Shown here one piece after another: positions 60,815 to 63,810 of a stretch of 64,000 nucleotides of DNA. The DNA is from Flavobacterium sp. N502536 (lineage in GTDB: Bacteria; Bacteroidota; Bacteroidia; Flavobacteriales; Flavobacteriaceae). A program made the translations under genes and the position numbers. Within the stretch, counting starts at the first letter, position 1; every line of letters starts with the position of its first letter. The stretch lies in NCBI RefSeq assembly GCF_025947345.1, contig NZ_CP110011.1, forward strand, positions 2,542,001 to 2,606,000. Direction: 5' to 3'. Under the pieces are notes generated by a model that saw only the letters and a program-made list of their open reading frames with translations, had not been told where the DNA came from and made no database searches.

Positions 60815-61678
60815 ATGAAAAAGTACCCGGTTTATAGTGTTCAGAATTTTAGCTGTAACGATATTCATCGTGATTTTTATGTCAATACGTTCAAAGAGCA
60901 TTTAAAAAGTCACAGTTTTGTTGAAGAACCGCATCGGCATGATTCGTATCTTATGGTGTTTTTTACGAAAGGCTCAGGGCAGCATGAAGTTGATTTTGAT
61001 CAGTTCGAAATCAAAAAAGGAAGCTTGTTTGTGTTGCAGCCCGGACAAATGCATCATTGGAGCTTATCTGAAGATATTGAGGGGTTTGTGATTATTTTTT
61101 CGCAGGAATTATATAATTTATATTTCGGACAGAAAAACATCAACGAGTATAATTTTTACCATTCGATTCACAATCGTCCGGAAATGGTTTTTGAAGAAAA
61201 GGGAATCCTTAAAATCAGGCCCTATTTTGATTTATTAATTCAGGAGAGTATTCAGGATAACAGATACCAGCTCGATAAAATGCTGAATTTATTAGATTGT
61301 ATTCATATCGAGATCGCGCGCAAATACATTGAAACGTATTCGCATCAAACGCATTCGTATAATATTAAAATTGATAAGTTCGAAATGCTTTTGGAGCAAT
61401 ACTTCAAACAGGAAAAATTACCCTCTTTTTATGCAGAAAAACTAAGTATCACTTTAAAACATCTAAACCGGATCTGTAATGAAATTCTACAAAAAACTGC
61501 AACGGAAGTTATTACAGACAGGGTGGTTTTAGAGATAAAGAGAATGCTGATTGATAAACAGTTAGCGGTTAACGAAGTGGCGTTTAAAGTAGGTTACGAA
61601 GATTATTCGTATTTCTCCCGATTCTTTAAAAAACAAACCGGAATGTCGCCTACAGAATTCCGAAATACTGTGCGATAA
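60815..61678 (+). CDS. AraC-family transcription regulator with cupin domain
   Basis: A 287-residue regulator. The N-terminal AraC-type cupin (about 25-110) has EEPHRHDSYLMVFFTKGSGQHEVDF and KKGSLFVLQPGQMHHW; the C-terminal helix-turn-helix pair (about 185-287) has LSITLKHLNRICNEILQKT and VAFKVGYEDYSYFSRFFKKQTGMSPTEFRN. It senses a small ligand and regulates nearby or distant genes. It is alone on the plus strand, 140 bp beyond its neighbours, and could regulate the yceI/pirin genes downstream, but the palindrome there is not typical of AraC sites. Confidence 0.92.
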   Translation: MKKYPVYSVQNFSCNDIHRDFYVNTFKEHLKSHSFVEEPHRHDSYLMVFFTKGSGQHEVDFDQFEIKKGSLFVLQPGQMHHWSLSEDIEGFVIIFSQELYNLYFGQKNINEYNFYHSIHNRPEMVFEEKGILKIRPYFDLLIQESIQDNRYQLDKMLNLLDCIHIEIARKYIETYSHQTHSYNIKIDKFEMLLEQYFKQEKLPSFYAEKLSITLKHLNRICNEILQKTATEVITDRVVLEIKRMLIDKQLAVNEVAFKVGYEDYSYFSRFFKKQTGMSPTEFRNTVR

Positions 61679-61818: not shown

Positions 61819-62352
61819 TTAGGCTTGCTTTGCAAATTGTAATTCAATGTTCAAACGAACTTCTTCCCCTACTAAAACACCTCCAGTTTCAAGAGCGGAG
61901 TTCCAGTTTAGTCCCCAGTCTTTACGATTGATTTTTCCTTCGATGCTTAATCCTGCTTTTGTATTTCCCCAGGGATCAGTCATAATTCCGCTAAATTCTA
62001 CCGGAAACGTTACTGATTTTGAAACACCTTTGATGTTTAAGTCTCCCGTTAATTCATAGGCTCCAGCATTGATTTTTTTGAAAGAAGAACCTTTGAATGT
62101 TAGTTTTGGGTGATTTTCAGCATCAAAGAAATCGCTGCTTCTTAGGTGATTGTCTCGGTCTGTGTTTGCAGTATCGATAGAAGTGATGTCTCCTGTAAAT
62201 TCGATTGCGGCATTTTCGAAGTTGTCTCCGTCTGTGTTAATTGTTGCGTCGTAAGTTCCAAATTTACCTGAAACATTTGTAAACATCATGTGTTTAACTT
62301 TAAAACCAATTTCTGAATGTGTTGGGTCAATTGACCATTTTGTAGTTGCCAT
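61819..62352 (-). CDS. YceI-family lipocalin-like protein
   Basis: A 177-residue YceI beta-barrel that binds polyisoprenoids in its family. I start it at the ATG 62352 (MATTKWSIDPTHSEIGFKVKHMM) since the longer form lacks a signal peptide as well. It has SIDTANTDRDNHLRSSDFFDAENHPKLTFKG and the end GLNWNSALETGGVLVGEEVRLNIELQF. No signal peptide is seen, so it may be cytoplasmic. A near-palindrome and a TAACTTTG -7 box lie upstream (see the regulatory entry), shared in layout with the pirin gene. Confidence 0.93.
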   Translation of the reverse strand: MATTKWSIDPTHSEIGFKVKHMMFTNVSGKFGTYDATINTDGDNFENAAIEFTGDITSIDTANTDRDNHLRSSDFFDAENHPKLTFKGSSFKKINAGAYELTGDLNIKGVSKSVTFPVEFSGIMTDPWGNTKAGLSIEGKINRKDWGLNWNSALETGGVLVGEEVRLNIELQFAKQA

Positions 62353-62391: not shown

Positions 62392-62437
62392 CAAAGTTAC
62401 GGCGGTAGTGAGGGTAAGGGACTTAACCTAGATTAAG
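62392..62437 (-). promoter_or_regulatory. yceI promoter with CTTAAnnTAGATTAAG palindrome
   Basis: On the minus strand, a TAACTTTG -7 box (62392-62399) lies 22 bp below the 16-bp near-palindrome CTTAACCTAGATTAAG (62422-62437; 7 of 8 base pairs). The palindrome covers the -33 region. The same arrangement and spacing occur at the pirin gene. Confidence 0.65.
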
Positions 62438-62441
62438 AAAC

Positions 62442-62478
62442 AAAAAATGCGATGACTTTTTTGAGTATCGCATCTTTT
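62442..62478 (-). terminator. Hairpin downstream of the ferredoxin-like gene
   Basis: AAAATGCGAT and ATCGCATCTTTT arms between the yceI palindrome and the ferredoxin-like gene, consistent with a minus-strand terminator. Confidence 0.6.
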
Positions 62479-62527
62479 ATTGTTGCTTTGAGAGCTCCCG
62501 ATTAGAGGGAAGAGTCTTGGTTTTTTT

Positions 62528-62604
62528 GCCACGGATTAAAGGATTTTCATTGATTAGTATGTTTCAATTCAGAAAAAATCTTTTTAATCTATATAATCTG
62601 TGGC
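62528..62604. repeat. GCCAC..GATT hairpin repeat (copy 3)
   Basis: The outer arms GCCACGGATT (62528-62537) and AATCTGTGGC (62595-62604) pair with one mismatch, and both arms repeat GATT every 8-10 bases inward. It resembles the elements at 34486 and 61688. Confidence 0.55.
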
Positions 62605-62611
62605 AAGAAAA

Positions 62612-62842
62612 TTAGCTTTTGTTATTCATGTAAAAAGTCAAAGCGCCCGAAGGACATTTTTGAACCGTTTGTATTATTTTTTCGGTGGTAGATTGTTCAG
62701 GAAGGATCCATGGTTTTTCTTTTGGATGAAAAACATCGGGATTGTTTTTTACGCAATTGGCAGAATGAATGCATTTTCCGGATTCCCAGACAATGGTAAC
62801 TTCTCCATTAGTATATTCTTTGATTAGGTTGTTTGGATTCAT
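62612..62842 (-). CDS. Mono-cluster ferredoxin-like protein (Fer4_19 type)
   Basis: A 76-residue protein with cysteines at 24, 30 and 63 in KCIHSANCVKN and QKCPSGAL, the divergent 4Fe-4S pattern of the Fer4_19 family, and the family's PWI(L)xP stretch. It is likely a small cytoplasmic electron carrier. It lies between yceI and pirin, on the same strand, but is not obviously preceded by the palindrome found at those genes. Partner unknown. Confidence 0.88.
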   Translation of the reverse strand: MNPNNLIKEYTNGEVTIVWESGKCIHSANCVKNNPDVFHPKEKPWILPEQSTTEKIIQTVQKCPSGALTFYMNNKS

Positions 62843-62943
62843 GGTTGAAAATTTTAGCGGTTAATTTTAGTTTTAAATTCAGACCAATTTTCTACTATAA
62901 AGTTAGTATTTCTTTTTGGCTTTACTGGGAATTTAGATAAAAA

Positions 62944-62991
62944 AAAGAAACGATAACATGCTGTTGTTCAGGTTTGTTATCGTTTCTTTTG
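62944..62991 (-). terminator. Terminator of the pirin gene
   Basis: A perfect 15-bp stem (62944-62958 with 62977-62991), with T residues on the minus strand behind the pirin stop. Confidence 0.85.
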
Positions 62992-63017
62992 AAAAAGTGC
63001 AAGCTGTGTTTGATGAA

Positions 63018-63734
63018 TTAATAATTCATAGGAACTTCCATCAACAGAAATTCGGCAGCTGTATTTGCTTTGATGTTTAAAGCTTCAAAATCAGAGATTC
63101 CCATAGCGTCACGAGTGTTTAATTCCTGACCGTTAATCGTTACATCTCCTTTTAAAATGAATATATAAACTCCGTTTCCTTCTTTTTTTAGTTTGTAGGT
63201 TGTCGCGATTCCGGCATCAAAATTCCCCATATGAAACCAGGCATCCTGATGGATCCACACTCCTTCATCATCAGCATTTGGAGATAAAACCTGAGACAGT
63301 TTGTTGTGTCTGTCGGCAACATCCAAAGTAATTTGTTGGTAACGCGGCGTTACATTTCTTTTGTTAGGAAATAGCCAGATTTGCAACAACTTAGTTTGCT
63401 GATCGGCATTTGGATTGAACTCACTATGCTGAATTCCGGTTCCGGCGCTCATGACCTGAATATCACCATTTTTAATGATTTCGGTATTTCCCATGCTGTC
63501 TTTGTGTGCTAAATCGCCTTCTAACGGAATTGTGATGATTTCCATATTATCGTGGGGATGTGTTCCAAAGCCCATTCCACCCGCAATAGTGTCATCGTTC
63601 AGAACGCGAAGTGCTCCAAACTGAATTCTTTCCGGATTGTACCAGCTCGCAAAGCTAAAACTGTGGTAGGCATTAAGCCATCCGTGATTTGCATTTCCTC
63701 TTGTTTCTGCCTTGTGTATTATTATGTTTTCCAT
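63018..63734 (-). CDS. Pirin-family bicupin protein
   Basis: A 238-residue two-cupin protein. I use the ATG at 63732-63734 (MENIIIHKAETRGNANHGWLN), since the longer form adds an unusual Tyr/Asn-rich leader. The first cupin has the metal site FGTHPHDNMEIITIPLEGDLAHKDSMGN and HSEFNP; the second ends with the family's FLLMEVPM. Pirins are iron proteins with quercetinase-like or regulatory activity and often respond to stress. The upstream region has the same palindrome and spacing as yceI. Confidence 0.94.
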   Translation of the reverse strand: MENIIIHKAETRGNANHGWLNAYHSFSFASWYNPERIQFGALRVLNDDTIAGGMGFGTHPHDNMEIITIPLEGDLAHKDSMGNTEIIKNGDIQVMSAGTGIQHSEFNPNADQQTKLLQIWLFPNKRNVTPRYQQITLDVADRHNKLSQVLSPNADDEGVWIHQDAWFHMGNFDAGIATTYKLKKEGNGVYIFILKGDVTINGQELNTRDAMGISDFEALNIKANTAAEFLLMEVPMNY

Positions 63735-63764
63735 GATGCTAATTGTTTTGTTATTTTTATAGTA

Positions 63765-63810
63765 CAAATTTACGATCAACATGCATGAAAAGCACTTAAT
63801 GTAGATTAAG
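63765..63810 (-). promoter_or_regulatory. Pirin promoter with CTTAATGTAGATTAAG palindrome
   Basis: On the minus strand, a TAAATTTG -7 box (63765-63772) lies 22 bp below the 16-bp near-palindrome (63795-63810; 7 of 8 base pairs). The spacing is exactly that of yceI. Confidence 0.65.

Follow-up and report, generated by a model that had tools for sequence, protein, structure and literature searches.

A promoter palindrome conserved before pirin and yceI genes of Flavobacterium is a probable operator of a Crp/Fnr-type regulator

Two promoters in the window – the whole 64,000-nucleotide stretch of the Flavobacterium sp. N502536 genome analysed here – carry a near-perfect palindrome at an identical distance from the -7 element, one upstream of yceI and the other upstream of a pirin gene (Table 1). 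We consider this palindrome likely to be the operator of a Crp/Fnr-type protein, here termed TF-A, which would act as a class II activator of yceI, pirin and pirin-osmC genes. The scheme that we infer for binding, activation and the inducing signal is as follows. Once activated, a TF-A dimer would bind about 42 bp upstream of the transcription start and recruit RNA polymerase to a TAnnTTTG promoter that lacks a good -33 element. The targets activated by TF-A in this genome would be yceI, a pirin gene, an operon with a second pirin and osmC and, probably, the gene for a 104-aa protein; in larger relatives they would also include a glyoxalase-type dioxygenase and an alpha/beta-hydrolase gene cluster. 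The regulon would likely serve in defence against quinones, electrophiles or related oxidants.

A preliminary description of this DNA had read the two palindromes as the site of one transcription factor, and its measurements hold: the two agree at 14 of 16 bases, each lies exactly 22 bp from its TAnnTTTG box, and the window contains no further near-perfect site. In each palindrome we find a single pair that breaks self-complementarity. One detail needs correction, namely that the palindrome was said to cover the -33 position. In F. psychrophilum TAnnTTTG is the sigma-A box at -12 to -5 (PMC9723704). With the box so placed, the palindrome reaches from about -50 to about -35, is centred near -42 and abuts the -33 position. 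In a loose form (up to three mismatches) the motif matches 15 times in the window against 15.04 expected; we thus rejected the motif count as evidence on its own, and it is the combination with the promoter that carries the weight. A stem-loop just 3′ of pirin, with a run of seven T behind it (minus strand), is a possible terminator parting pirin from the Fer4_19 gene. Its loop of 18 bases falls outside the rule of our terminator scan, which did not list it; the promoter and terminator scan applies sigma-70 rules, a poor fit to Flavobacterium.

Table 1. Features of the window bearing on the predicted regulon (positions are those of the window).
Feature	Position	Strand	Details
AraC-type regulator gene	60815-61678		adjoins yceI
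yceI, predicted target	61819..62352	-	177 aa, PF04264
yceI -7 element TAACTTTG	62392..62399	-	22 bp downstream of operator
yceI operator, predicted TF-A palindrome	62422..62437	-	CTTAACCTAGATTAAG on forward strand, CTTAATCTAGGTTAAG on minus strand
Fer4_19 ferredoxin-like gene	62612..62842	-	76 aa; no operator, no direct target here
Stem-loop, possible terminator	62940..62986	-	11-bp arms 62947-62957 and 62976-62986, by eye
pirin, predicted target	63018..63734	-	238 aa, PF02678 and PF17954
pirin -7 element TAAATTTG	63765..63772	-	22 bp downstream of operator
pirin operator, predicted TF-A palindrome	63795..63810	-	CTTAATGTAGATTAAG on forward strand, CTTAATCTACATTAAG on minus strand

When one mismatch is tolerated, CTTAATNTAGATTAAG has six matches in the whole 5.05-Mb genome. 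Three of these have TAnnTTTG exactly 22 bp downstream and stand before yceI, pirin and a second pirin gene; the operon of the last runs from pirin (assigned by Pfam) through an OsmC-like gene, whose assignment scores below the model's cut-off, to a small acetyltransferase-like gene recognised by eye. The fourth place, with its box at 21 bp, precedes the gene for a 104-aa protein (L089 1935-2246), which is probably a target of the same site. The others we discarded as chance matches: one (L003) has no TAnnTTTG at the proper distance, and one (L004) lies within a long reading frame. When site, spacing and TAnnTTTG are searched for together, the whole genome yields 30 matches – 3 perfect and 27 with two or three mismatches – and a reversed control pattern yields 33.

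Conservation across the genus is where the palindrome stands out. Recurrence at the same spacing before yceI and pirin orthologues, which the preliminary description had named as the check to be made, is found throughout 80 named Flavobacterium loci collected by searching with the TF-A protein: CTTAAYCTANRTTAAG lies, with zero mismatches, upstream of 80/80 pirin and 79/79 yceI genes, spaced by 22 bp in 79 of the pirin promoters (21 in the other one) and in all 79 of the yceI promoters. The exact pattern (TTAATCTANNTTAA, 21-25 bases, TANNTTTG) is present in 81 of 150 genomes of the genus with 203 matches, compared to 5 matches for the reversed pattern in the same 150 genomes. Under a pattern allowing 21-23, 244 of 255 distinct promoters have a spacing of 22 and the remaining 11 a spacing of 21. 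Information content was taken from the 79 pirin and 79 yceI promoters of the named loci with 22-bp spacing. Per column, the site averages 1.84 bits for pirin and 1.99 for yceI, the -7 box 1.79 and 1.98, the spacer 1.21 and 1.05, and the 30 bases upstream 0.45 and 0.75: site and -7 box are the best-conserved promoter parts, and in the named loci the spacer is fairly conserved too. The proposal of a single transcription factor acting through a dimeric site at a common promoter position thus draws support from genus-wide conservation. For the site outside Flavobacterium the case is weak: among 299 genomes of the family, seven from other genera have one match each as against two control matches, and the one genome of another genus with a TF-A homologue (E <= 1e-50) has no site within the surrounding 2.6 kb.

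TF-A is a 191-aa protein of Crp/Fnr type. The orthologue of this genome, 77% identical, is encoded 4.7 kb beyond the end of the window (G000:C1:2610707-2611279), on the same strand as yceI and pirin. In 80/80 loci fetched with TF-A its gene and pirin share a strand, with TF-A 0-8 kb upstream – directly upstream of the pirin promoter in L059-L062 and L067 – and the linked regulator is of Crp/Fnr type in 80/80 named loci, a count to be read with the fact that TF-A itself was used to fetch them. Between TF-A and pirin, L087 (1971-6643, past the end of the window) holds an XRE/ScfRs-type regulator gene together with genes that we take, from their sequence, to be those of malate synthase and isocitrate lyase (glyoxylate shunt); homologues of the XRE and isocitrate lyase genes occur in 74 of the 80 named loci. 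Upstream of the TF-A gene itself the best matches in the 80 loci have three to six mismatches, and autoregulation through the palindrome was rejected for want of a site there.

The assignment of TF-A to the Crp/Fnr superfamily comes from sequence and predicted fold. The orthologue in L059 matches PF00027 (E 1.4e-8; 35.1 bits against a cut-off of 27.5), and the AlphaFold model (pLDDT 92.5) comprises a beta-rich N-terminal domain, a 26-residue helix and a C-terminal helical domain, the last with no Pfam match in the L059 orthologue. Its best relatives in the PDB are 3dn7, matched in sequence at E 1.6e-40 over profile positions 4-188 with about 34% identity, then FNR (8qto) and CRPs; Foldseek aligns the model with 8qto over 199 columns (TM 0.86 by query length), and CRPs also match. 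TF-A has the N-terminal beta-roll domain of cyclic-nucleotide-binding type that is expected of a member of the superfamily, and a predicted two-fold symmetric operator, with the caveat that the covariation of residue 183 described below rests on few cases. The NCBIfam CRP model gives 30.1 bits, far under its cut-off of 266. Over 131 TF-A rows the most frequent cysteine columns are 44 (125 rows), 73 (121) and 155 (53), none of which is close to the N-terminus; without an N-terminal cysteine cluster, TF-A is therefore no iron-sulphur FNR. Cys44 was considered and rejected as a proven sensor: the column is Ala in 5 of the rows, and paralogues have cysteine there too.

Evidence that TF-A and the palindrome belong together came firstly from their distribution. 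At a threshold of E <= 1e-60, TF-A is present in 97 of 150 genomes, one copy each. Site and TF-A occur together in 79 genomes, the site alone in 2, TF-A alone in 18 and neither in 51 (p 4e-22). The two assemblies with the site alone are 79% and 83% complete; among the 125 genomes that are at least 90% complete, the corresponding counts are 75, 0, 13 and 37. In 17 of the 18 genomes with TF-A alone, pirin is preceded by a variant of the palindrome (CTTAACCTACATTAAG in 9), with TAnnTTTG at a distance of 21-22 bp, while for the eighteenth the stretch examined was not the pirin promoter. Gene content offers no explanation of the co-occurrence, given that pirin is present in 144 of the 150 genomes. 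We opened 20 of the 53 TF-A-less genomes, picked for a pirin that matched the query well, and at the pirin promoter 19 were without the site. In the exception, G131 (L360, G131:C90), the pirin operator is kept and the slot for TF-A between a DUF6370-like gene and pirin is empty: this looks like recent loss.

Genomes of one genus are not independent, and the co-occurrence is therefore partly phylogenetic. We built a tree from 95 pirin proteins, after leaving out six loci without a pirin match and dropping duplicates. Of these proteins, 69 come from TF-A loci, every one with the site, and 26 from TF-A-less loci, one with the site. The tree yields only six supported independent contrasts, in which the site tracks TF-A in 5.7 on average and opposes it in 0 (median p 0.03). 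Many branches of this tree are weak and some are long, so its support is modest.

A second tie between protein and palindrome lies in the recognition helix, which reads TPEFFSKMK in nearly all loci. Position 183, numbered on the full 191-aa TF-A, is Lys in 173 of 179 TF-A loci and Arg in the other 6, which come from three genomes in two lineages. The fourth half-site position is G in 0/196 distinct pirin and yceI sites of Lys183 loci; Arg183 genomes have TTGA/TCAA half-sites in four of five distinct sites, with G in CTTGACATAGGTCAAG, in CATAATCTAGGTCAAG (twice, with differing spacers) and in GATAATCCAGGTCAAG, and without it in CATAATCTAGGTTAAG. The site scored was the best TTAA-like palindrome 21-22 bp before TAnnTTTG, a rule under which TTGA sites are still admissible. 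Left out were 15 gene rows of TF-A genomes that had no scored site (12 yceI, 3 pirin), the three pirin rows having a two-mismatch palindrome before TAnnTTTA. FNR has arginine at the matching position and reads TTGAT. The covariation ties TF-A to the palindrome, albeit through few cases; counting against a simple code is a paralogue, TF-B (below), that has Lys at the position matching 183 and yet TTG half-sites.

A separate question is the sign of regulation. If TAnnTTTG occupies -12 to -5 then the palindrome is centred at about -42.5, and its spacing is fixed; CRP and FNR bind at such a fixed place near -42 when they act as class II activators. Moreover, TTG at -33 (spacer 15-19) is found in 7 of the 255 distinct promoters, compared to a mean of 29 in shuffled spacers, a baseline of shuffles rather than of ordinary promoters. 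The position of the centre, together with the scarcity of a -33 TTG, fits an activator better than a repressor, and the dimeric repressor originally envisaged finds no support in a site that lies upstream of the core promoter. That TF-A binds the palindrome as a repressor, to be released by a ligand or by thiol modification, we regard as unlikely. The end of the palindrome, only 22 bp from the -7 box, is near enough to contact polymerase, but near-invariant spacing and a -33 TTG rarer than in shuffles are not what such a mechanism leads one to expect; and while quinone-stress regulons with similar genes are indeed under repressors, for instance MhqR of Staphylococcus and Bacillus, the MhqR operator sits at -6 to +12, over the start (PMC6798810), and the palindrome at about -50 to -35. 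The same position bears on the family of the regulator, for which MarR, TetR, HxlR and Crp types had been suggested. Operators of the first three would be expected over the core promoter or the start, a placement that the palindrome does not have, and the regulator is likely none of them; the Crp type is the one that co-occurrence and covariation favour.

The palindrome might instead be bound by another protein: the AraC-type regulator encoded next to yceI, the XRE regulator, or a MarR, TetR or HxlR protein encoded elsewhere. The AraC gene lies within 78 of the 80 named loci and the XRE gene within 74, and AraC is itself associated with the site over the 150 genomes (52/29/9/60, p 9e-11). However, an AraC orthologue (E <= 1e-70) is missing from 29 of the 81 site genomes, compared to only 2 of 81 for TF-A, and 20 divergent TF-A loci (fetched at 3-5.5 kb) show neither an AraC nor an XRE gene, on which grounds we rejected the AraC neighbour and, with less evidence, the XRE neighbour. 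Any such regulator, moreover, would leave the covariation between residue 183 and the half-site without explanation, and we judge this alternative quite improbable.

Many genomes that lack TF-A contain the Crp/Fnr paralogue TF-B, which is 37-41% identical to TF-A and whose gene was directly upstream of pirin and yceI in 7 of 8 TF-A-less loci opened. The palindrome in these loci is CTTGTCCTAGTTCAATG or CTTGTCCCAGTTCAATG and stands about 21 bp upstream of the -7 box, frequent forms of which are CAnnTTTG and GAnnTTTG; in G030, which has both regulators, the TF-B palindrome is CTTGAACTAGTTCAATG. The exact TF-B pattern (CTTGNNCYAGTTCAATG, with the box as NANNTTTG) occurs in 23 of the 150 genomes and 0 times in controls. 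All 23 have TF-B (E <= 1e-80), which 25 genomes have in all. TF-B is present in G131. Five genomes have both sites, and the same five, with no others, have both proteins. The pairing of TF-B with its site, along with the five double genomes, suggests a joint exchange of regulator and operator at these promoters. In 33 of the 150 genomes there is no TF-A and no strong match to TF-B, yet 27 of them still have pirin; the twelve that were opened (pirin at 69-76% identity) showed no TF-A-like site, so that pirin regulation has been lost there or passed elsewhere. Two incomplete genomes among the 33, G122 and G144, carry the exact TF-A site.

We put forward tentatively, at somewhat short of an even chance, that TF-A (TTAAT) and TF-B (TTGWNC) have replaced each other over a pirin-yceI detoxification regulon within one genus, the operators being rewritten at a fixed position, and that the change of Lys183 to Arg accompanied by TTAA to TTGA is a natural recoding within TF-A. 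A structural role for the palindrome, or one as an extension of the core promoter, with no specific regulator bound, might have been suggested by its rigid spacing to TAnnTTTG but is scarcely credible: no more than 3 or 4 promoters of this genome have the palindrome, nearly all of the TF-A-less genomes opened lack it before pirin, and in TF-B genomes it gives way to a different palindrome in the same place.

Some individual promoters are of note. Before pirin in L298 (G030:C9) there are two similar tandem copies of a TF-B promoter, each with CTTGAACTAGTTCAATG and a -7 region, 90 bp apart. The gene for the 104-aa protein in the same locus has a hybrid palindrome, CTTGAACTAGATTAAG, with one TF-A-like and one TF-B-like half, and the pirin promoter of L353 (G132) has another, CTTAATCTAGGTCAAT, of the same composition. 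G132 has no TF-A, and its hybrid site adjoins a diverged TF-B-like gene. The 104-aa protein has no match in Pfam or NCBIfam, and a homologue is present in 6 of 10 TF-B loci; though uncharacterised, it is a probable member of the pirin/yceI response.

As to the content of the regulon, larger relatives have the site also before an alpha/beta-hydrolase gene, followed in L053 by isochorismatase, amidohydrolase, DoxX, ferritin-like and carboxylesterase genes on the same strand, and a separate site before a glyoxalase-type dioxygenase gene (both in L053, with L056 alike by eye). In some loci pirin is followed by FMN reductase and Fer4_19 genes, the latter inside the pirin operon in L059, L060, L061 and L062. 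The suggestion that the ferredoxin-like gene is a direct target is unsupported here: we found the gene in 35 of the 80 named loci, and the best match upstream of it has 4-6 mismatches. A small stress-linked regulon, on the other hand, is upheld, with the link to stress itself only probable. The protein families of the targets make a role in quinone, electrophile or oxidant defence about evenly balanced. What favours it is that the dioxygenase and carboxylesterase correspond to the MhqE/MhqD pair, which belongs to the MhqR quinone-stress regulon (PMC6798810).

Should the signal prove to be a quinone or electrophile, TF-A would be a Crp/Fnr-type electrophile-responsive activator in the role that MarR-type repressors play in Firmicutes. 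Few Bacteroidota regulators, to our knowledge, have a known operator. The present analysis provides a Crp/Fnr protein, a probable operator, a promoter geometry and a target list for a large part of Flavobacterium, a genus in which some species, F. johnsoniae for one, are genetically tractable, and places proteins of vague function – pirin, YceI, OsmC-type and the 104-aa protein – in one response. The correspondence between residue 183 and the half-site is directly and cheaply testable; and TF-A and TF-B, as a natural regulator pair with swapped operators, are useful for the study of how DNA recognition evolves.

We found no description of a TF-A regulon in the open literature, a search that left most subscription journals outside and in which the spelling 'Crp/Fnr' could partly be missed; it is fairly described as a new regulon under a regulator of known kind, the newest part being the exchange of two regulator-operator pairs. 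With the MhqR/QsrR regulons of Firmicutes (PMC6798810) it shares protein types: a glyoxalase-fold dioxygenase and a phospholipase/carboxylesterase near sites in larger relatives, and an FMN reductase in some pirin operons. MhqR, however, belongs to the MarR type and represses from an operator that covers the start, whereas TF-A is a Crp/Fnr protein placed upstream of the -7 box, and we claim no membership. The -7 element of TF-A promoters is identical to the TAnnTTTG of Flavobacterium sigma-A promoters described in PMC9723704, in whose main text Crp, pirin, YceI and palindrom have no match. By sequence and by fold alike (TM 0.93 by target length) the nearest solved relative is 3dn7 of Cytophaga hutchinsonii, a cyclic nucleotide binding regulatory protein, an entry with neither operator nor regulon in our results. 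A close parallel in promoter layout is with class II promoters of FNR and CRP (Escherichia coli, and FNR of Aliivibrio fischeri), where a dimer of the same fold family has its palindrome at about -42. The FNR site, TTGAT-N4-ATCAA, is close to the TTAAT-N4-ATTAA of TF-A, and its TTGA is that of the Arg183 variants. TF-A differs from FNR and CRP in its short length of 191 aa, in having no N-terminal cysteine cluster and in its TTAA half-site, and its regulon differs in the Bacteroidota promoter TAnnTTTG and in the genes that it would control.
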